Below, piece by piece: positions 2,499 to 24,546 of a stretch of 64,000 bases of DNA. This stretch comes from Pelagibacterium limicola (lineage in GTDB: Bacteria > Pseudomonadota > Alphaproteobacteria > Rhizobiales > Devosiaceae). The stretch's first letter is position 1; each line of letters opens with the position of its first letter. A model generated the notes under the pieces. That model was not told where the DNA came from. It saw only the letters and a list, made by a program, of their open reading frames with translations, and made no database searches. Made by a program: the position numbers and the translations under genes. The DNA lies in NCBI RefSeq assembly GCF_015694405.1, contig NZ_JADQDB010000005.1, positions 272,589 through 336,588 on the forward strand. The letters run 5' to 3'.

Positions 2499-4351
2499 TA
2501 GAACCGCTCCGGCACCAGAATGGCGTTCACATCAACGCCGTTGCTGGCAAATAGAGCCTCGAGCGCCGCAATTCCGGGCGCCTCGGGCGGGTTGGAAAGC
2601 GCCATGTCGGCCTCATCGCCTGCCGGCAGCGCCAGAGCCGCCGTCACCAGCACCGTGGCGCCGGGGGCGATCTCGCCGCGCAATTGCGGCACGATGGACT
2701 TGGAGACGATGAGATTTGTGTTGGGCAGGGTGCGGAACGCTCGCCCTTCGCGCTGGCCGACGAGATCGACAATGGCACTGAGATCGGTCCGGCTCCGCGC
2801 GATGGCCCTGCCGGTTTCGTCGATATAGGTATCGGCATTGAAATCGGCGCGAGCAATGGCAAAGCCGCCTTCAGTGGCATGCAGCGGGCGCGGGGTTTCG
2901 ATGCGATGGACGCGGACATGCCAATAGCCGGCATGAAGGAGATAGGTGTCCACCGTTACATCGGGCCAGGGCTTCCAGCGCGAGAACAGCGTGTCGCCGG
3001 CAATCCTGGCGATTTCGTTGGTTTCACGCACCCGGTAGTGGCGGCCATCGTCCGAAAAAGCGAGCATCCCGTCGAAGGCTCCGGAATGGTAGGCGCGCTC
3101 GTCCGCCTCGACGGAAAAACCGTAGCGGCTCGAATAGACGAACTTGGCGTATTTTTCGGCGCCAGCGCGCATCTGCCAGTTCTGCTGGCCGCTGGATAGC
3201 GCCACCACATTGCCCGGCGTGTGCTGCATGACCATGCCGGGATGCCGGAGCGGCACCGGTTCGGGAGAGAAGTCGGCGTCCACCTCCTCGGCTGTCCAGA
3301 AGGGATGATCCTTTGGCAGAGCCAGGGGCAGGAAGGCCTTGAGCGCCCAATAGGGCGAGCCGGCCGAATTATAGCTCTCGGACATCAGGAGGTTGGGATA
3401 GCCATAGCCAATCGAGAGGACGCCGTCCCCGCTGGCGATGGGCAGCTGGCTCCACCAGCGCAGATGCCGCAGGAAGTGGCCCTTGATGACACCCCAGGGC
3501 AAGGCCTCGACATCGGCAAAGGCCAGCGCGCCCCAGAAGCCGCTACAGGCAAACCGATAGGTCAGGCTGCGCCCGAAGGCCAGCGCGCCGCCATCCTCGT
3601 CGAACCAGTGCTGGATGTCTTTAGCAAAAAGCCGCGCGCGCTCCTTGTAGTCGGCCACGCGCTTGTCATCTCTATTGGCCAGCCTGGCATAGATCAGCCC
3701 GTAAAAATGCATGGCGAAGGGGATGTAATGGTCGATGCGCCGCACATTGCCGTCGCGGTACCAGCCATCGCCGAGATAGAAGTCCTCGAGCTCGCTCAGA
3801 TAGGCATCGGTGTAGGAACGGTCGAATTCGACCCCGCATTCCTCGAGTCCCAGATCGACCAGGATGCGGAAGAATTTCCAGTTGTTGTCCGCGTAGTCGA
3901 ATTTTCGCGCGTGCTTGAGATAGGCCGCCAGATTGTCCTTGGCCCGTTGCTCCAACGGGTCCCACACCAGATGGGGCAGCATTTTCATGGTAAAGCCGAT
4001 GGCCGCCAGTTCCACCTGACGCTGGTCGATGCCGTTGACCGCACCCCAGTATTCGGGATGCTCGGGATCGGTCCCGTTGGCAAGACCCTGGCGGTAGAGC
4101 GCCCAATGGTCGAAAAGGCCGCCGCCGGCCGCCAGCGGCGTCAGGCCCCAGAGCGGGCGGGCAAAGCCTTCGAGATCGGCTGCTGCCCGGTCGAAATGGG
4201 CCCCCACGCCGTCGAGCCGCACCCGCGCCCCGCCCTTGGAAAAATAGGGCAGAAGCGGCGTAAAGAGAGCGTTTAGCCCGCGTTCGACGTCATCGCGGGT
4301 GCGAAGCGGGTTGCCGAAGAGCGGATTGGCCGTGGCAGGATCATAGGTCAT
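2498..4351 (-). CDS. DUF2264 domain-containing protein
   Basis: 617 residues from the ATG at 4351, one base after the TGA of the ATPase gene (TGAAATG). The frame is open further upstream, but that part is the shadow of the ATPase gene. The N-terminal half is helical and rich in aromatic residues (GGLFDHWALYRQGLANG, YADNNWKFFRILVDLGLEE, DGWYRDGNVRRIDHYIPFAMHF), as in DUF2264 proteins, which have an alpha/alpha-toroid fold like polysaccharide lyases. The C-terminal half is beta-rich. No signal peptide, so it is cytoplasmic. DUF2264 genes often sit in carbohydrate-use clusters, and a glycoside- or uronide-processing role fits here. The exact reaction is unknown. Confidence 0.85.
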   Translation of the reverse strand: MTYDPATANPLFGNPLRTRDDVERGLNALFTPLLPYFSKGGARVRLDGVGAHFDRAAADLEGFARPLWGLTPLAAGGGLFDHWALYRQGLANGTDPEHPEYWGAVNGIDQRQVELAAIGFTMKMLPHLVWDPLEQRAKDNLAAYLKHARKFDYADNNWKFFRILVDLGLEECGVEFDRSYTDAYLSELEDFYLGDGWYRDGNVRRIDHYIPFAMHFYGLIYARLANRDDKRVADYKERARLFAKDIQHWFDEDGGALAFGRSLTYRFACSGFWGALAFADVEALPWGVIKGHFLRHLRWWSQLPIASGDGVLSIGYGYPNLLMSESYNSAGSPYWALKAFLPLALPKDHPFWTAEEVDADFSPEPVPLRHPGMVMQHTPGNVVALSSGQQNWQMRAGAEKYAKFVYSSRYGFSVEADERAYHSGAFDGMLAFSDDGRHYRVRETNEIARIAGDTLFSRWKPWPDVTVDTYLLHAGYWHVRVHRIETPRPLHATEGGFAIARADFNADTYIDETGRAIARSRTDLSAIVDLVGQREGRAFRTLPNTNLIVSKSIVPQLRGEIAPGATVLVTAALALPAGDEADMALSNPPEAPGIAALEALFASNGVDVNAILVPERF

Positions 4352-4352
4352 T

Positions 4353-5380
4353 TCAAGCGCTCGCCTTTTGCGGCGCCTCGAAGGCGCCCTGTAGTTCAAG
4401 GGCTTCGGCAAAATGGCAGGCGGCCATCTGGTCTGTGCCATCGATGGCGCGGAGCGCCGGCTTCTCGCTGCGGCAGCGGTCCTGGGCGTATTTGCAGCGC
4501 GTATGGAACGGGCACCCCTGCGGCCGGTTGCCGAGATAGGGGATTTCTCCCCTGGGCGTGGTGCTGCGGCCCTTGCGCCGGGTGGGATCGGCGACTGGCA
4601 GGGCGGCGAGCAGCATTTCCGTATAGGGATGGCGCGGGCGCTCGAACAGCAGGTCGGTGGGCGCGTTCTCCACCACATGACCCAGATACATCACCACCAC
4701 CCGGTCCGCGATGTAGTTGACCACCCCCAGATCGTGGCTGATGAAGATGTAGGTAAGGCCGAACTCTTCCTTGAGATCGTCGAGAAGGTTGAGCACCTGG
4801 GCCTGAATGGAAACGTCGAGCGCGGACACGGCCTCGTCGGCGATGACCAGCTTAGGATCGAGCACCAGGGCGCGGGCGATGCCGATGCGCTGGCGTTGGC
4901 CGCCCGAAAAGGCGTGCGGATAGCGCCCGGCGGCGTCCGATGGGATGCCGACCTTGGCCAGAACGTCGTAGACCCTTTCCTCGAGTTCGCGGCCGCGTGC
5001 GATGCGATGGATGCGCAACGGTTCTGCCACGAGGTCGAAGACCCGCATGTTCGGGTTGAGCGACGACATGGGATCCTGGAAGATCATGCGCACGTCGCGG
5101 CGCCAGGGCTTGAGTTCGCGCTTGGACAAAGCGGTCAGCTCAACCTTTGCGGCGTCCTTGGGATGATAATAGACGCGTCCTTCCGTTGCGGGTTGCGCCT
5201 GAATGATGCAGCGTCCGAGGGACGTCTTGCCGCATCCGCTTTCGCCCACGATGGCCAGGGTTTCGCCGGCCTTGACGGTGAGACTGATGTCGTTGAGCGC
5301 CACCAGCTCCCGCGAGGGCCCGAAAAGGCCGCTGCCAAGCGTATATATCTTGGAGAGGTTTTCGACCGAGAGGATCGTGC

Positions 5381-5384
<4 letters not shown>
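4353..5384 (-). CDS. Oligopeptide/oligosaccharide-type ABC importer ATP-binding protein (OppF/DppF class)
   Basis: 343 residues from the ATG at 5384, which overlaps the preceding ATPase stop as ATGA. Walker A is GESGCGKTSLGR, the signature is FSGGQRQRIGIARAL, and Walker B is LVIADEAVSALDVS. The C-terminal extension with the Cys-rich GCPFHTRCKYAQDRC segment is typical of the oligo_HPY domain in OppF/DppF proteins, where related cysteines can bind an Fe–S cluster. It powers the transporter made by the adjacent permeases and binding protein. The Opp family moves peptides but also many sugars in rhizobia; the lyase and DUF2264 neighbours favour a sugar. Confidence 0.92.
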
Positions 5385-6389
<1,005 letters not shown>

Positions 6390-15146: not shown

Positions 15147-15352
15147 ATGACGAAAGCGCCCCCGGCTCATGCGAAGGTGCCCCGCAAATCGCTCTACAAG
15201 TGTCGGCAATTGGCCCGAGGGGGCGGGCCGAGCTATGCGGGCACGTTGGCTCGACGTTTTGGTCTTCTAGCGTACGTAAATCTTTGTTCTGGAACCATTT
15301 TCCCCGGAATACCGTTGCCGTCCGGACTTAATTGCACAGACCGGAGGATCCA

Positions 15353-15835
15353 ATGGCCGAAAAAAATCTCAAGTCACTTTTCGAAGACACCTTGCGCGAC
15401 ATCTATTATGCCGAGCGCCAGATTCTCAAAGCTCTTCCCAAAATGGCCAAAGCGGCAAACTCGGAGGAACTGGCCCAAGGTTTCGAGCGTCATCGGCAGG
15501 AAACCGAAACCCATGTCGAACGGCTCGAGCAGATTTTTGAGATGCTCGACAAGCGTCCCCGCGGCAAGACCTGCGACGCCATTCTCGGCATTATCGAAGA
15601 AGGCAAGGAGGTGATGGAGGAATACAAGGACACCGTTGCGCTTGATGCCGGACTAACGGCTGCGGCACAGGCCGTCGAGCACTATGAAATCGCGCGCTAT
15701 GGCACCTTGAAATCGTGGGCTCAGCGGCTCGGGATGAAGGACGCGGTTCGCCTGCTTGACCAGACGCTCAACGAAGAAAAGGCGACCGATGAAAAACTGA
15801 CCGCACTCGCCGAGGCCGATGCCAAGGCGGCATGA
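15353..15835 (+). CDS. DUF892 (YciE/YciF-like) ferritin-like protein
   Basis: 160 residues from the ATG at 15353 with GGAGG five bases upstream. Four long helices with LFEDTLRDIYYAERQILKAL, FERHRQETETHVERLEQIF, EHYEIARYGTLKSWAQRLG and LLDQTLNEEKATDEKL place Glu, Asp and His residues at the spacing of the DUF892 di-metal bundle. Members are often stress-induced and their exact job is not settled. It lies in the loose accessory stretch near tRNA-Arg. The end overlaps a small downstream frame by 17 bases. Confidence 0.88.
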   Translation: MAEKNLKSLFEDTLRDIYYAERQILKALPKMAKAANSEELAQGFERHRQETETHVERLEQIFEMLDKRPRGKTCDAILGIIEEGKEVMEEYKDTVALDAGLTAAAQAVEHYEIARYGTLKSWAQRLGMKDAVRLLDQTLNEEKATDEKLTALAEADAKAA

Positions 15836-16374: not shown

Positions 16375-16451
16375 TGGCGCGCCCGAAAGGATTCGAACCT
16401 CTGACCCCCAGATTCGTAGTCTGGTGCTCTATCCAGCTGAGCTACGGGCGC
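16375..16451 (-). tRNA. tRNA-Arg (anticodon ACG)
   Basis: 77 bases with CCA encoded. The acceptor GCGCCCG pairs with CGGGCGC, the D arm is GCTC/GAGC, the anticodon stem CCAGA/TCTGG encloses loop CTACGAA, and the T loop is TTCGAAT. Anticodon bases ACG lie at 16415–16417 (as CGT on the plus strand). In bacteria A34 of this tRNA is normally changed to inosine by TadA. Confidence 0.97.
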
Positions 16452-16573: not shown

Positions 16574-17998
16574 TCAGACAAGGCTTGCGAGGGGAAAATC
16601 GAGGGCGAAGCGCGTGTCCTTGGGGGTATCGAGGAGGGTGAGCCGGCCTCCGTTCGCCTCGGTCAATTCGCGGGCGATGGCGAGCCCCAGCCCCGTGCCG
16701 CCGGCCCGCGCCGAACCCTCGAAAGCCACGAAAAGGTTGTCGCGCGCGCGGGGCGGCAGGCCGGGGCCGTTGTCGGCGATCACGATCCGCACCTGATCGC
16801 CCTCTCGCCCCGCGGTGAGGACCACTGCAGGGTCGGGGGTTTTTTCCCCCATCACCTCGAGAGCCTCGCGGGCATTCTTGAAGAGGTTCACCAGCACGCG
16901 CGAGACGTGATCGGGATCGAGTTTGAGATCGAGGGTTTCGGGCACCTGGTTGTCGAACCTGATCGTGGGATGCCCATGAAGCCCGGCTGCCTGGGCCGCT
17001 TCGTTGCCAAGCGCATGAAGGGAAAACCTGCGCGGGCGTGGCGGGGTGACCTGCTGGCGTCCATAATCGAGCACCGTCTGGGCAAAGCCGATAGCCTTGT
17101 CGAGCGTGGTCACTAGCCTGGGCGCGAGCCGCTGCACCTTGGGATCGTCGAGGGTTGCCACCTGATCGGAGAGCAATTGTGCAGAGGTCAGCATGTTGCG
17201 AAGGTCGTGATTGATCTTGGCGACTGCCAGCCCGAGATCGGCAAGGTGGCGGCGATGACGGAGCATCGAGAACAGCTCGGCCTGCGTTTCGGACAACGCG
17301 TTCTCGAGCACCCCGATTTCGTCGTCGCGATCGGGATCGGGCGTGATGATCAGCGTGCCGTTTTCGGGATTCCGGCGGAAGGCGAGAACGTTGCCGGTCA
17401 GCCGCTTGATGGGCGCAATCAGGAGCCGCTCGGCAAAGATATAGAGTACGGCCGCGGTCACCGCTGCAATAATGAAGCCGAGCGCCAGAATGTTGACCGA
17501 ATAGGTGAGCATGTCCGCCCGCAAGGGGCCTTCGGGCATCACCACCTCGACGACGATGTCCCCCGCTCCGGGCGGCACGCCGACGATCCGCAATACCCGC
17601 CGACCACCGAAGAGCAGAGTTTCCACCCCTTCCACGACGAGGCGCAGGGGGTTGCGGTCCCGCATGTCGGCGAGATGGGTCTCGGTGGGCATGGTCACCG
17701 CTTCGAGCGCAATCAGGTCGGTCTGCCCGGCGCGCCGGTAGACGATGGCCAAAGCGCCCGCAGATTGCAGCAGGGGATCGGTGATCTCCACCGGCAGGTC
17801 CGTGACGTCGGGCACTGCGTCGAATACACGCACCGCCACCCCGCCGACACGCAGGCGGTCGTCGAGCCAGCTCGCACGGTAATTGGCGAGCGAGGGGAAG
17901 AAGACCGCGACCTCGACCAGGAGGATGACAAAGGCAATGACCGAGATGAGCTTGAAGGACAAGCTTCTCACTCTCACCGTTTTGTCCCCAAGCGCCAT
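16574..17998 (-). CDS. Sensor histidine kinase, orphan
   Basis: 474 residues. A first membrane helix (about 17–37) and a second (about 173–196, LALGFIIAAVTAAVLYIFAE) flank a periplasmic sensor domain of about 135 residues. A HAMP-like linker follows, then an H-box KINHDLRNMLTS with the phosphoacceptor His, an N-box LVNLFKNAREALE, G1 IADNGPGLP and G2 GGTGLGLAI. The N-box and HDLRN form resemble kinases of the HPK4/HisKA type. No response regulator gene is next to it; it follows the flavoprotein gene by 26 bases on the same strand, so the two probably share an mRNA. The signal is unknown. Confidence 0.9.
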   Translation of the reverse strand: MALGDKTVRVRSLSFKLISVIAFVILLVEVAVFFPSLANYRASWLDDRLRVGGVAVRVFDAVPDVTDLPVEITDPLLQSAGALAIVYRRAGQTDLIALEAVTMPTETHLADMRDRNPLRLVVEGVETLLFGGRRVLRIVGVPPGAGDIVVEVVMPEGPLRADMLTYSVNILALGFIIAAVTAAVLYIFAERLLIAPIKRLTGNVLAFRRNPENGTLIITPDPDRDDEIGVLENALSETQAELFSMLRHRRHLADLGLAVAKINHDLRNMLTSAQLLSDQVATLDDPKVQRLAPRLVTTLDKAIGFAQTVLDYGRQQVTPPRPRRFSLHALGNEAAQAAGLHGHPTIRFDNQVPETLDLKLDPDHVSRVLVNLFKNAREALEVMGEKTPDPAVVLTAGREGDQVRIVIADNGPGLPPRARDNLFVAFEGSARAGGTGLGLAIARELTEANGGRLTLLDTPKDTRFALDFPLASLV

Positions 17999-18024: not shown

Positions 18025-19452
18025 CTATGGCAACAAACGCTTAAGCGTCCCCATAACCCTCCAGGCGAGGCTTTGGGGATGATCGGCGGCATATCGAGCG
18101 GCGGAAAGCGATGCGATTTCGCTGAGCGCGGGATAGGGAGCGAGAAGACCAGCAAGATCGTGGAGCGTCAGCCTTTGTGCGATGACAAGCCCAAAGAGGC
18201 CGGCCAATTCGCCCGCGCCGTCTCCACAAAACCCTGCCCCCACAAGCCTGCCTCTCCGGGTGGTAAGGAGCTTTGCGTGCCCCTCGCGCCGGGCGTGGAC
18301 ACGGGCCTTGTCGAGACCGGCCAGCGGAAAGCGGGTGACGGAGAAATTGAGCCCATGGCGCGCCCGCGCCTGGGCTTCGGTCAGCCCCACGGCCGCGATT
18401 TCGGGGTCGGTGGCAATCAACCGAGGCAGGACGGGGGGCAGAAACAGCCCCAAACGGGGGCCGAGCGCATGGGTCGCAGCCCAGGCGCCCATAAAGCGCG
18501 CAGCATGGACCGAGCGCGTGCCCGCGGCGTCCCCCACGCAATAGATACGGTGATTGGAGGTGCGGGAAACCATGTCGAGCGCCACCCCGCCCCGGCCCCT
18601 TTTCACCCGCGCTTTGCCCAGGTCGAGGGTGTCGAGATTGGCGCTACGGCCGGTCGCGACGAGCAGGTAGGAGCCTGAAATCGTTCGTTCGTCGGCTCCG
18701 GTCCTGAGCGTGACAACAACGTTATTTTCATCGCCCTCGACGGCAACGACGCCCGTGTTGGCAAAGATCGCGACACCCTCGCGTTCGAGACCGTCGAGAA
18801 CCGGCACGGCAAGTTCGACATCCTCATCCCCCAGAGGGGCGAGCATATCGACGAGCGTCACCTCGCAGCCGAGCCGCCGGTGCGCCTGTGCGAGCGTGGT
18901 TCCCGTCGCGCCGCCGCCAATGACGATGAGGTGTGCCGGCCGGCGGGTGATCTCGAATATGGTTTCCGGCGTGTGGAAGGGCACGCCCTCGAGCCCGGGT
19001 ATTTCGGGAATATGGGGACGGGAACCGGTGGCGAGGATGAACCGCCGGGCCTTTATGCGCCTTTCGCCGGCCGCGATTGTCGAGGGCGACGTAAATGCGG
19101 CCGGATGGCGAATGACCTCGGCCCCCTTGGCGGCCAGCCGCTCGGCCGATACGTTGGGCCGCGCGTCCTCGACGACAGATTTGATATGGGCATTGAGCCG
19201 AGCAAAGTTGACCCTCGGATCTTCAGCTCCAATACCCAGGTCGGCCGCGGTACGGATATCATGGGCCCGGCGCGCCGAGGCGGCGAGCGCATGGGCCGGC
19301 AAGGCGCCCCAGTTGAGGGCAACCCCGCCCATCTCGACCGCCTCGACAATGGCGGTAGACGCCCCGAGTTCGAGCGCCCTTTCGGCGGCGGCCAGCCCGG
19401 CCGGACCGGCGCCGATCACGCACAGATCGACCCTTTCGTTCCTCGTTGCCAC
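18025..19452 (-). CDS. Pyridine nucleotide-disulfide oxidoreductase-like flavoprotein lacking the redox cysteines
   Basis: 475 residues from a GTG at 19452; a much longer upstream frame is a shadow. FAD-binding GAGPAGLAAAERALELG at the N-terminus, a second Rossmann GGGATGTTLAQAHRRLG for NAD(P)H, and ATGRSANLDTLDL plus YCVGDAAG are the class-I layout of dihydrolipoamide dehydrogenase and mercuric reductase. The active-site segment that reads GGTCLNxGCIPSKAL in those enzymes here reads GGVALNWGALPAHAL, so both cysteines are alanine. The C-terminal HPTLSE motif reads YPALSE, so the catalytic His is also gone. It should still bind FAD and a nicotinamide nucleotide but cannot do disulfide chemistry. 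A co-transcribed kinase suggests a sensing or accessory role, which is inference. Confidence 0.88.
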   Translation of the reverse strand: MATRNERVDLCVIGAGPAGLAAAERALELGASTAIVEAVEMGGVALNWGALPAHALAASARRAHDIRTAADLGIGAEDPRVNFARLNAHIKSVVEDARPNVSAERLAAKGAEVIRHPAAFTSPSTIAAGERRIKARRFILATGSRPHIPEIPGLEGVPFHTPETIFEITRRPAHLIVIGGGATGTTLAQAHRRLGCEVTLVDMLAPLGDEDVELAVPVLDGLEREGVAIFANTGVVAVEGDENNVVVTLRTGADERTISGSYLLVATGRSANLDTLDLGKARVKRGRGGVALDMVSRTSNHRIYCVGDAAGTRSVHAARFMGAWAATHALGPRLGLFLPPVLPRLIATDPEIAAVGLTEAQARARHGLNFSVTRFPLAGLDKARVHARREGHAKLLTTRRGRLVGAGFCGDGAGELAGLFGLVIAQRLTLHDLAGLLAPYPALSEIASLSAARYAADHPQSLAWRVMGTLKRLLP

Positions 19453-19715
19453 GCTATTCCGAAGGCCCCTCGACCGGTTGTCCCCTATGTTCGCCTCGCT
19501 TGTAACGCGGCTTGGAGATGCTGACCAGACCGCCCAGGGCATGCCGGCGCAAATTCGGTCGCTGGCTCGATTGACTTGAGGGAGGCTTTTTTCTATAAGC
19601 CGCGCAACCTTTGCCATTGGCTCTGGGCGGGACCGCCCTTGCCCCATTGGCAGACATTAACGTCACAAAGACACCTAGACAAAGAGGATCGCGCCGGCGC
19701 GCGCGGTATGGATCA

Positions 19716-19850
19716 ATGAAGCGTACTTTCCAGCCGAGCAATCTCGTGCGCAAGCGCCGCCATGGTTTCCGGGCCCGTATGGCCACCAAGAATGGCCGCA
19801 AGGTTCTGGCCCGCCGCCGCGCGGTCGGCCGCAAGCGGCTTTCGGCGTAA
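19716..19850 (+). CDS. rpmH: 50S ribosomal protein L34
   Basis: 44 residues: [18 protein letters not shown], then [20 protein letters not shown]. The highly basic, short L34 sequence is unmistakable. It is the first gene of the conserved rpmH–rnpA–yidC–engB run. The 263 bases upstream, back to the flavoprotein start, should hold its promoter; I see a GGGCGG/CCGCCC hairpin near 19626 but no clear -35/-10 pair. Confidence 0.98.
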
Positions 19851-19879: not shown

Positions 19880-20236
19880 TTGTCGCTGAGGCGCCTTACG
19901 AAACGGGCACAGTTTGTAAAAGCCGCGCGGGGCACGAGGGTAGCCCGGCGCGGTTTTGTGTTGCAGGCAGCAACGGTCGAGCAAGCAATCCCGGGGGTCG
20001 GATATACGGTCACCAAGAAGACCGGTAACGCCCCGGAGCGCAACAGGATCAAGCGCCGACTGCGCGCGGCTGTCGCAAAGGTGAGCGGCAAGCTTGTCGC
20101 AGGTCACGATTATGTCTTGATCGGACGGCGTGAGGCCTTAAATGAACCCTTCAATGTGCTCGTGGCCGAACTTTCGGGCTCCATCGAACGCATTCACGAG
20201 AGACAACGGCCCAAGGGCGAGCGGGTATTGAAATAG
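19880..20236 (+). CDS. rnpA: Ribonuclease P protein component
   Basis: 118 residues from a TTG with GGAGG seven bases upstream. The start RRLTKRAQFVKA and the RNR-like motif NAPERNRIKRRLRAAV are the family's RNA-binding hallmarks. It assists the catalytic RNA in maturing tRNA 5' ends. It follows rpmH by 29 bases and precedes yidC by 4 bases. Confidence 0.97.
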   Translation: MSLRRLTKRAQFVKAARGTRVARRGFVLQAATVEQAIPGVGYTVTKKTGNAPERNRIKRRLRAAVAKVSGKLVAGHDYVLIGRREALNEPFNVLVAELSGSIERIHERQRPKGERVLK

Positions 20237-20240
20237 AGCC

Positions 20241-22082
20241 ATGAACGACCAACGCAACATGATCCTGGCCATCGTCCTGAGCATGGTTGTGCTCTTTGGC
20301 TGGCAATATTTCATCGCGGGCCCGCAGCTCGAGCAGGCGCAACGCCAGGCCGAACTTGCCGCCGAGCAACAGGCGGCACAGCAGGCGCCGGACAGCCTCG
20401 ACATCGCCGCTCCTGCAGGAGAGCCGGGCGCTGTAGCGCCCGCCGGAACGGCAGCGCCGACGTCCGATATCACGACCTTTGCGACGCGTGACGCCGCGCT
20501 CGCCGCCAGCCCGCGCATCGCCATCCAGACACCGTCGGTTTCGGGCTCCATCAATCTTGTGGGCGCGCGGATCGACGATCTCCATCTCGTGAACTACCGC
20601 GAAACCATCGAGCCCGACAGCCCGACCATCACCCTGCTTTCGCCAGCCGGGTCGCCTGAACCCTATTTCCTCGAGCATGGTTGGGTCGCGCCTTCGGGCA
20701 GCACCGTTGCGCTGCCCAACGGGCAGACGGAGTGGGCGCTCGAGAGCGGGGAAACTCTTACCGCCAATTCGCCGGTAACGCTGGTATGGGACAATGGCGA
20801 AGGCCTCGTGTTCCGCCGCACAATCACTGTCGACGACCATTATCTCTTCACGGTCACCCAGAGCGTGACCAATACCGGAGCCAGCGAAGTGGCGCTTTAT
20901 CCCTATTCGCGCATCATGCGGCTCTATACACCGTGGACGCAGAATTTCTTCATTCTCCATGAAGGCCCGATCGGTGTCCTGGGCGCCGCCAACCTCGTCG
21001 AGATGAGCTATGGCGACCTGCAGGGCGATCGCCAGCGTGATTATGTCTCGACCGGCGGCTGGCTGGGCTTTACCGACAAATATTGGGCCACGGCGATCAT
21101 TCCCGATCAGACAGAGACGGTCAACGCGCGGTTCTTCCATTCGACCCGCAACGGCAATCTTGACGATTATCGCGCCAATTTCGTGTCCCAGACGGCCGTC
21201 GTCGCGCCGGCCGGCGGATCGGCGGAACATACGAGCCTTGCCTTTGCCGGGGCCAAGGTCGAGGCGATCATCGATTCTTACGAGCGCGCCTATACAATCG
21301 ACCGGTTCGAGCTTCTGATCGACTGGGGCTGGTTCCACTTCATCACCAAGCCCATGTTCATCGTTATCCGGTTCCTGCACCAGATCCTGGGCAATTTCGG
21401 TCTCGCCATCCTTGCGGTGACGGTGATCATCAAGGCGATCTTCTTCCCTCTGGCCAACAAGAGCTATGCCTCCATGGCCAACATGCGGCGCGTGCAGCCG
21501 CAGATGAAGGAGATCCAGGAAAAGCACAAGGATGACCGCGCCGCCCAGCAGCAGGCGATGATGGAGCTTTACAAGACCGAGAAGATCAATCCGCTCTCGG
21601 GCTGCTGGCCGATCCTGATCCAGATTCCGGTGTTCTTTGCGCTCTACAAGGTCCTGTTCGTTACCATCGAAATGCGGCACGCGCCGTTCTTTGGCTGGAT
21701 TCAGGACCTTGCGGCGCAGGACCCCACGACGATCTTCAACCTCTTCGGGCTCCTGCCCTACGACCCCACGATCGTGCCGATCATCGGGCCGTTCCTGCAG
21801 GTGGGCGTCTGGCCGCTCATCATGGGTGTCACCATGTGGGTGCAGATGAAATTGAACCCGCCCCCGACCGATCCGACGCAGCAGATGATTTTCGGGCTGA
21901 TGCCGATCATCTTCACCTTCATGCTGGCGACCTTCCCGGCCGGTCTGGTGATCTACTGGGCGTGGAACAACTTCCTTTCGATCGTCCAGCAATGGTTCAT
22001 CATGAAGCGCCACGGCGTCGAGGTGGACCTTCTGGGCAACATAAAGAACAGTTTCAAGCGCAAGCCCAAGGCTGCGGAATAG
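20241..22082 (+). CDS. yidC: Membrane protein insertase YidC
   Basis: 613 residues. An N-terminal membrane helix (MILAIVLSMVVLFGWQYF region) is followed by an Ala/Gln/Pro-rich linker, a large periplasmic beta-domain (about 95–345) and the conserved five-helix insertase core from about 370 (ILGNFGLAILAVTVIIKAIF, NPLSGCWPILIQIPVFFALY, MLATFPAGLVIYWAWNNFLS). The basic tail ends in SFKRKPKAAE. It inserts and folds inner-membrane proteins with or without SecYEG. Length is normal for an alphaproteobacterial YidC. Confidence 0.98.
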   Translation: MNDQRNMILAIVLSMVVLFGWQYFIAGPQLEQAQRQAELAAEQQAAQQAPDSLDIAAPAGEPGAVAPAGTAAPTSDITTFATRDAALAASPRIAIQTPSVSGSINLVGARIDDLHLVNYRETIEPDSPTITLLSPAGSPEPYFLEHGWVAPSGSTVALPNGQTEWALESGETLTANSPVTLVWDNGEGLVFRRTITVDDHYLFTVTQSVTNTGASEVALYPYSRIMRLYTPWTQNFFILHEGPIGVLGAANLVEMSYGDLQGDRQRDYVSTGGWLGFTDKYWATAIIPDQTETVNARFFHSTRNGNLDDYRANFVSQTAVVAPAGGSAEHTSLAFAGAKVEAIIDSYERAYTIDRFELLIDWGWFHFITKPMFIVIRFLHQILGNFGLAILAVTVIIKAIFFPLANKSYASMANMRRVQPQMKEIQEKHKDDRAAQQQAMMELYKTEKINPLSGCWPILIQIPVFFALYKVLFVTIEMRHAPFFGWIQDLAAQDPTTIFNLFGLLPYDPTIVPIIGPFLQVGVWPLIMGVTMWVQMKLNPPPTDPTQQMIFGLMPIIFTFMLATFPAGLVIYWAWNNFLSIVQQWFIMKRHGVEVDLLGNIKNSFKRKPKAAE

Positions 22083-22760: not shown

Positions 22761-23569
22761 TCGGGCTGGCCCGCAATAAAATCGAGCACGGTCTGCCTGA
22801 ACAACTCGGGCTGGTCGAGATTGGCGCAGTGCCCGGCTCCGTCCATGCGCACGATGGTCACATTGGGCAGCGCGTCGAGCGCAGCAAGCGCAGGATCGAG
22901 CTTCCGATTGACAGCCCGGTCCCGGGCCCCGCGAATGATGAGCAGCGGCTTTTTGCAGGCGAGCACATTGGCGCTGAGGTCGTATCGCGACACCACGCCG
23001 CCGACCGCCTTGCCAACTTCGGGATCGAACGTGCGGATCAGCGCCGCCACGACCTCGCGGCCCTCCCTTGCCGGCGTGGTCACGTGCGCGGTCAATCGGG
23101 AAACAACCGTCTTTCCAGCCAGCCGATAGCTCAGTGGAATGAGCGCGCTCGTGAAACCTGGGAGGTTGAGCGCCGGCGCGGTGCCGAATGTGGTCAGCGT
23201 ATTAAAGCAGGTCGCGTGATCCTTGAGCAGATGCAGCGCCAGGATTCCGCCCAGGGAATTGCCGACATAATCGATCGGCCCTGCACCGGCATCCTCGAAG
23301 ATTTCGAGGAGGTCTTGCGCCATCCGCGCGATCGAATAGTCCTTGGATGCGGGTTTGCCCGAGCGCCCATGCCCGCGCAGATCCGGCACGATGACGCGGA
23401 ACCCCTTGCCGGCAAAATGCCGCGCGTCGGCATCAAACTGGTCGGCGCCCGCCGCCAACCCGTGAACCAGCGCGAGGGTACGGCCGCCCGGCTCGCCATA
23501 ATCGAACCAGACGAGTTCAACCCCGTCGCTCGAGGATGTCACGCGTTCGAAGCGGAGTTCAGATTTCAT
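22757..23569 (-). CDS. Alpha/beta hydrolase
   Basis: 270 residues from the ATG at 23569. Oxyanion-side [11 protein letters not shown], nucleophile elbow VGNSLGG (Ser about 103), acid in GARDRAVNR and His in [12 protein letters not shown] form a full catalytic triad. A family level call only: esterase, lactonase or similar. ATG overlaps the mbfA stop as ATGA, so it is the second gene of the iron-controlled mbfA unit, an unusual partner. Confidence 0.88.
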
Positions 23570-24546
23570 GCGCTCCCGATCAGTATGCCTGCCGCAAAGA
23601 CCAGCGAGCCACCCAGCACCACTTGCAGGACGGCACGCCAGAAGGGCGTGTCCATGAATCGCTTCTGGATATAGGCGATAGCCCATAGCTCGATAAAGAC
23701 CACGATGGTCGCAATCGTTGTCGCTGTCCAGAAGTCGGCGATGAGATAGGGCAGGGCGTGGCCGAGCCCGCCAATTGTCGTCATGATGCCCGAGGCAAAG
23801 CCGCGCTTTACGGGCGAGCCGCGCCCGGTCAGCCTGCCATCGTCGCTTGCCGCCTCGGTAAAGCCCATCGAAATCCCCGCACCGACCGATGCGGCAAGCC
23901 CCACGAGAAACGTCGTCCAGGTGTCGCCGGTGGCAAAAGCAGCGGCAAAGATCGGGGCGAGAGTCGAGACCGAACCGTCCATCAGGCCCGCAAGGCCGGG
24001 CTGGACATAGGTGAGGAGAAACTTTTTGTGGGCCGATTGCTGCTCGGTCTCGCGCGCTTGCGGGTCGAGATGGGCGGTCTCGAGCGCTTCAGCGGCGCGC
24101 TCATGCCCGCGCTCTTCGCGCTCGAGGTCACCGAGCAGCTTGCGGATCGCGGAGTCTGCGGTGCGCTTGATGGCCTCGGCGTAAAATCGGGCTGCGCCCT
24201 GTTCCATGTCGCGCGCCTGCGCGCGAACGATCTCGATGTCGAGCTCGGACATCAGCCAAACGGGCTTGCGGGTGAAAAAGCCGCGCACGTGCTCGCGCCG
24301 TATCGGCACAATATGTGCGCCGAACTTTTCGGTATAGAGATCGATCAGCTTGCGCCGGTGCTCATCCTCTTCTGCCGCCATGCCCTCGAAGATCGCCGCC
24401 GAGGCAGGGTAGTCGGACCGCAGCCGGTCGGCATAGGCTGCATAAATGCGCCCGTCCTCTTCTTCGGATGAGATGGCGAGGGCCAGGATCTCGCGTTCGG
24501 ACAGGGAGGAAAAGTCGCGCTTGGAGGAGAGAACGCGGGCGAGCAT
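23566..24546 (-). CDS. mbfA: Membrane-bound ferritin-like iron exporter (MbfA type)
   Basis: 326 residues. The N-terminal 150 residues are a rubrerythrin/erythrin-type bundle (EREILALAISSEEEDGRIYA, AAEEDEHRRKLIDLY, EQGAARFYAEAIKRT, LEREERGHERAAE) with the Glu/His iron ligands. The C-terminal half is a VIT1/CCC1-type transporter (GLAGLMDGSVSTLAPIFAAA, VGAGISMGFTEAASDD). This fusion is MbfA, which lowers iron and peroxide stress in rhizobia and Agrobacterium and is repressed by Irr. The Irr-type box at 24562–24582 sits 16 bases before its ATG and would block transcription. Confidence 0.95.
   Translation of the reverse strand: MLARVLSSKRDFSSLSEREILALAISSEEEDGRIYAAYADRLRSDYPASAAIFEGMAAEEDEHRRKLIDLYTEKFGAHIVPIRREHVRGFFTRKPVWLMSELDIEIVRAQARDMEQGAARFYAEAIKRTADSAIRKLLGDLEREERGHERAAEALETAHLDPQARETEQQSAHKKFLLTYVQPGLAGLMDGSVSTLAPIFAAAFATGDTWTTFLVGLAASVGAGISMGFTEAASDDGRLTGRGSPVKRGFASGIMTTIGGLGHALPYLIADFWTATTIATIVVFIELWAIAYIQKRFMDTPFWRAVLQVVLGGSLVFAAGILIGSA

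Follow-up and report, generated by a model that had tools for sequence, protein, structure and literature searches.

A MerA-like reductase homologue without redox cysteines, encoded beside a membrane histidine kinase in Pelagibacterium

In the Pelagibacterium line, a homologue of MerA-like FAD-dependent reductases has lost both redox cysteines, and the TVP38/TMEM64 gene that adjoins it in relatives is gone as well; the motifs for FAD, NADH and dimer formation are retained. The copy analysed here is found in a stretch of 64,000 nucleotides from P. limicola (the window). It is under purifying selection, and its gene immediately precedes that of a membrane histidine kinase. From its sequence and its place at the conserved rpmH/rnpA/yidC locus, the gene is assigned as the orthologue of a TVP38-linked MerA-like FAD-dependent reductase. 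The explanation that accounts best for these features is that the reductase no longer carries out dithiol chemistry and has been retained as a flavin- and NADH-binding partner of the kinase, a reading in which our confidence and our doubt are evenly balanced.

Residues and gene context of the window protein

The reading frame is unbroken, as the preliminary description had stated. It is open over 475 codons on the minus strand, from a GTG start at 19452 to the stop at 18025 (Table 1). The Pfam domains Pyr_redox_2 (165 bits) and Pyr_redox_dim (74 bits) cover the full length of the product, which with its FAD and NAD(P)H motifs belongs to the flavoprotein (pyridine nucleotide) disulfide oxidoreductase fold family defined by this combination. 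The FAD motif GAGPAG, ATG, the NAD motif GGGATG and VGD were all found intact, in agreement with the same description, and strand beta2 ends in Asp202, which is of the NADH type. The best NCBIfam models are those of a PRK06370-type FAD oxidoreductase, of MerA and of lipoamide dehydrogenase, all with scores well under the curated cut-offs. An AlphaFold2 run on three sequences gave a pLDDT of 44.8, too low to support conclusions on structure.

The window protein has neither the CxxxxC redox-active dithiol nor the C-terminal catalytic His-Glu pair that characterize group 1 of the flavoprotein disulfide reductases. Residues 42-56 read GGVALNWGALPAHAL, with Ala45 and Ala50 at the CxxxxC positions, while residues 436-445 read LLAPYPALSE, with Tyr440 where GR and LPD carry the catalytic His, followed by Glu445. 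The LPD- and GR-like paralogues of the same genome retain both CxxxxC and the His. The replacement of three catalytic residues had been proposed, and this holds for the two cysteines but not for the Tyr. A Tyr occupies this position of the C-terminal motif in all 54 full-length homologues with the Cys pair that were surveyed within the order, and MerA has a catalytically important Tyr at the same C-terminal position (PMC4500099; PMC10587081). The Tyr is thus the ancestral, MerA-like state, so that the His was not lost in the window lineage and the catalytic residues lost number two, not three. Note that a His is found at the Tyr position in a few Pelagibacterium copies (L038, L043, L044, L045 and L050).

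Pelagibacterium, the host genus, belongs to the Devosiaceae. Both cysteines are absent in the 13 Pelagibacterium genomes searched, so the changes are clade-wide for the Cys pair, the Tyr being ancestral rather than a change of the clade. Cysteines in near-identical orthologues, which would have pointed to a recent loss or a sequencing error, were looked for and not found: neither cysteine is present in the nearest orthologue, which comes from P. sediminicola (L035/L037) and shares 70% identity, or in any of the 12 other Pelagibacterium genomes. The letters at the two positions in other Pelagibacterium are A/A, A/S, S/A, S/S, S/T, A/T, G/A and P/G. The same loss across 13 genomes rules out a sequencing error and, with several sister genera in agreement, leaves a negligible chance that an assembly artefact or a recent mutation of one strain is responsible.

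The kinase gene begins 26 nt past the oxidoreductase stop. Clustering of the neighbouring ORFs over the first 48 loci, with TVP38 identified by PF09335 and the kinase by PF02518, yielded a single conserved order in which yihA-yidC-rnpA, reading away, are followed by the (TVP38/TMEM64) - oxidoreductase - histidine kinase genes. The public annotation of S. meliloti pSymB lists yidC, rpmH, a TVP38/TMEM64 family protein, a NAD(P)/FAD-dependent oxidoreductase and a HAMP domain-containing histidine kinase. The window shows the synteny that delimits this orthologue group in Hyphomicrobiales, namely rpmH/rnpA/yidC and (TVP38) - oxidoreductase - histidine kinase, with TVP38 absent. Neither a TVP38 gene nor a detectable remnant of it is present in the gap between the oxidoreductase gene and rpmH. 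No close TVP38 homologue was found anywhere in the genome of the window, which has one other VTT-domain protein, or in 11 of the 13 Pelagibacterium genomes overall; the remaining two have one or two homologues elsewhere in the genome.

Two further ORFs of the window were noted by eye. The product of 23566-24546 (minus strand) resembles a ferritin-like domain in its amino-terminal half and a membrane iron transporter of the VIT/CCC1 type in its carboxyl-terminal half, and the small ORF 15332-15835 (plus strand) resembles YciE/DUF892 ferritin-like proteins.

Table 1. Features of the oxidoreductase locus in the window
Feature	Position	Strand	Basis or remark
tRNA-Arg(acg)	16375-16451	-	directly downstream of the histidine kinase
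Membrane histidine kinase	16574..17998	-	two TM segments (by eye); H-box INHDLRN; HATPase_c PF02518, 66 bits
Cys-less MerA/LPD-like FAD-dependent pyridine nucleotide-disulfide oxidoreductase homologue	18025..19452	-	Pyr_redox_2 and Pyr_redox_dim over full length
Tyr440 codon, GR/LPD catalytic His position	18133..18135	-	Tyr in 54/54 Cys-pair homologues
Ala50 codon, second Cys position of CxxxxC	19303..19305	-	alignment columns
Ala45 codon, first Cys position of CxxxxC	19318..19320	-	alignment columns
Intergenic gap at the TVP38/TMEM64 site of Cys-pair relatives	19453..19715	.	neighbour clustering, survey, S. meliloti gene order
rpmH (ribosomal protein L34), divergent neighbour	19716..19850	+	read from the sequence; rpmH annotated likewise in S. 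meliloti
rnpA (RNase P protein), synteny anchor	19880..20236	+	ORF; conserved neighbour cluster c4
yidC (membrane insertase), synteny anchor	20241..22082	+	ORF; cluster c2; yidC annotated in the S. meliloti locus

Distribution of the cysteine pair, TVP38 and the kinase

The first survey comprised 155 full-length proteins, 54 with both cysteines and 101 without the pair, the latter including one that retains a single Cys (L088). TVP38 is adjacent to 52 of the 54 Cys-pair copies and to none of the 101 others. The kinase adjoins 36 Cys-pair copies and all 101 copies without the pair, where it is on the same strand; the rnpA/yidC anchor is present beside 98 of these 101. The absence of TVP38 from the copies without the pair and the constant presence of the histidine kinase directly after them both give weight to redox sensing, one of the roles that the preliminary description had offered. 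Two Cys-pair loci in which no TVP38 match was found (L065 and L109) are both on short contigs. In L138 (~3338-5479) one frame of ~713 aa fuses TVP38 to an oxidoreductase with an intact Cys pair. Several Devosiaceae (L097, L103, L104, L106, L108, L110-L113) code for a second oxidoreductase, which has the Cys pair and lies beside TVP38, at a site separate from the rnpA locus and from the kinase; it coexists with the kinase-linked copy that lacks the pair.

Of 136 Devosiaceae genomes, 132 have the kinase, and in 124 of these the oxidoreductase gene is directly upstream of it. Departures from this arrangement are due to contig ends, a small number of broken copies, one clean absence and two Cys-pair genomes (G014 and G026) in which the oxidoreductase is kept and the kinase lies elsewhere. 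The clean absence is a natural deletion in G077 (L143, 5300-7500), where rnpA adjoins the histidine kinase gene. Some of the broken oxidoreductase copies come from assemblies that also have a broken yidC or kinase gene. The H-box HDLR of the kinase is kept in 108 of 110 loci of the Cys-less type. This genomic linkage may reflect a physical or functional coupling of kinase and oxidoreductase; no fusion of the two was found in ~190 loci, an apparent one of 958 aa (L076) being an overlapping frame. The histidine kinase gene of two Cys-pair genomes (G034 and G155, genus g6) has one internal TAA.

The positions of the FAD, NAD, Tyr and Glu motifs are essentially invariant in the 54 Cys-pair copies. 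Of the 101 copies that lack the pair, 99-100 retain the glycines of the FAD Rossmann motif, but ~60 have lost the third Gly of the NAD motif, 73 the Asp of GD that binds FAD and 69 the C-terminal Tyr. The window protein shows none of these losses. Most of the erosion falls in one Devosia-like genus (g16), possibly Devosia itself, and there the kinase stays.

On a tree of kinase and YidC sequences from 54 loci, the Cys pair must have been lost three times independently, each time along with TVP38. Sampling was widened by 20 further loci from other families and by additional matches, which added Cys losses in L193, L194, L195, L205, L207, L209, L216, L218 and L220; on the supported branches of the wider kinase tree there are at least seven Cys-state changes. 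TVP38 changes in the same direction in ~4.5 of seven independent pairs and in the opposite direction in none; the remaining pairs show no difference in TVP38 (p 0.0625-0.125 by sign test, not significant). A perfect tracking of TVP38 with the Cys pair is weakened by L203/L204 (family f19), which retain the pair with TVP38 not adjacent, and by L217/L219 (family f40), which have lost one Cys with TVP38 present. The joint loss is a strong tendency and not a proven law.

Selection and the role retained by the Cys-less protein

By the NG86 method, applied to 23 close Cys-less pairs with medians taken by hand and some dS values above 1, dN/dS of the Cys-less oxidoreductases is roughly 0.08-0.33 (median 0.17), well below 1 in all pairs. 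The adjacent kinase has a median of 0.06 in the same pairs and the Cys-pair oxidoreductases one of ~0.08. The Cys-less protein is thereby under purifying selection, with a constraint that is relaxed relative to the kinase and to the Cys-pair copies. A dN/dS of ~0.2 between the window protein and its orthologue of 70% identity upholds the earlier claim that the protein is being kept.

A relaxed constraint would also be displayed by a slowly decaying relic that became non-essential after TVP38 loss and drifts, held in part by its place between promoter and kinase. Such a relic would fit the dN/dS of the oxidoreductase, two to three times as high as in the adjacent kinase, the free variation of the active-site letters between species, and the occurrence of a clean deletion (G077) and of some broken copies. 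We nevertheless regard it as improbable: the 101 full-length proteins without the Cys pair are open frames, and dN/dS is well below 1 in 23 of 23 Cys-less pairs. Moreover, N168, K171, L172, R241, G244 and G246 (window numbering) are near-invariant in the Devosia-like copies and variable in the Cys-pair copies, a pattern that speaks for newly acquired constraint and against simple decay.

Another possibility is that the protein is a residual Cys-less NADH dehydrogenase or diaphorase that has a metabolic role of its own and in which quinones, O2 or other acceptors take up the electrons of FADH2; its linkage to the kinase would then reflect only co-regulation. The FAD, NADH (Asp202) and dimer motifs of the window protein are all intact, in line with such a role, and LpdA and Irc15p, which lost the dithiol, are quinone reductases in vitro (PMC6296175). 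The Devosia-like clade, however, has retained the gene and the neighbouring kinase despite losing the third Gly of the NAD motif and the GD Asp, so catalysis is not the feature conserved across the set, and a diaphorase is unlikely, if still worth considering, as the general explanation. It is chiefly this erosion of catalytic and cofactor sites, which leaves the kinase linkage untouched, that makes the role as kinase partner preferable, and it suggests that the kinase-linked role may have no need of catalysis.

As a partner of the kinase, the window protein would still bind FAD and NADH, with a flavin reducible by NADH, and would pass no electrons onward to a disulfide or a metal on the si face. 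Its retained role may be to report the NADH/flavin state to the adjacent histidine kinase or to be the cytosolic partner of that kinase. Weighing against this reading are the negative search for fusions, the clean deletion in G077, the position of the kinase elsewhere in G014 and G026, the non-significant sign test for joint loss, and the exceptions L203/L204 and L217/L219. The Cys-deficient homologues Irc15p and LpdA have no disulfide reductase activity and pass electrons to quinones, Irc15p being also reduced by NADH (PMC6296175). In Caulobacter, the NADH-binding oxidoreductase homologue KidO is a negative regulator of the CtrA pathway (PMC7083601).

For Hyphomicrobiales as a whole we tentatively propose, with confidence somewhat short of even, that the TVP38-linked MerA-like reductase repeatedly lost its dithiol and its membrane partner and is now a non-catalytic FAD/NADH-binding input of the adjacent orphan histidine kinase, in a convergent conversion from enzyme to sensor. 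The stages of such a conversion would be represented by copies with the Cys pair and TVP38, by Cys-less copies whose cofactor sites are intact, like that of the window, and by copies of the Devosia-like genus, where further drift would have removed residues of the FAD and NAD sites and kept the link to the kinase.

Relation to known systems

Flavoprotein disulfide reductase homologues without the cysteines are already known as a kind. Likewise, fusions of COG0398 DedA proteins with reductases of MerA-like type are known as their most common fusions, and COG0398 DedA proteins are reported to be essential in Caulobacter and Dinoroseobacter, their job being unknown (PMC10127716). For the alphaproteobacterial three-gene module TVP38/TMEM64 - MerA-like reductase - histidine kinase beside rpmH-rnpA-yidC, no description was found in the open-access literature; the same holds there for a recurrent Cys loss tied to TVP38, for a constant kinase partner and for the pairing of such a pseudoenzyme with the kinase. 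The Cys-less lineages are natural loss-of-function variants of this module. They suggest that the dithiol chemistry of the reductase may serve the TVP38 partner and the rest of the protein the kinase.

The closest counterpart with a Cys pair is S. meliloti pSymB LZK74_18360, which has the same position by rpmH/yidC, the same type of downstream kinase and 44% identity to the window protein. Tyr replaces His in this family as in the window copy, but the family has CLNxGCVPSKAL and an adjacent TVP38 gene, both of which are missing in the window. MerA (Tn501, RC607 type) shares the fold and the Tyr at the His position; the window protein differs from it in having neither the redox Cys pair nor the C-terminal Cys pair, and its score of 282.7 bits with the MerA model TIGR02053, far below the curated 454.45, places it outside MerA proper.

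Cys loss is also found in M. tuberculosis LpdA (Rv3303c) and in SthA, which are flavoprotein disulfide reductase homologues too. One Cys is missing in LpdA and at least one in STH, whereas both are missing in the window protein. The latter scores 205.9 of 479 bits with the model of LpdA-type NAD(P)H-quinone dehydrogenases (NF005883) and 186 of 465 bits with that of soluble transhydrogenase, below the cut-off in both cases. Yeast Irc15p is a flavoenzyme with a non-disulfide job in which both redox cysteines are lost as well (Tyr and Ala). Unlike the window protein, it is of LPD lineage, keeps the His-Glu dyad, comes from a eukaryote and has a microtubule role. Caulobacter KidO, which belongs to a different oxidoreductase family, offers an alphaproteobacterial precedent for an oxidoreductase homologue as regulator, a role demonstrated experimentally for KidO and proposed here for the window protein.
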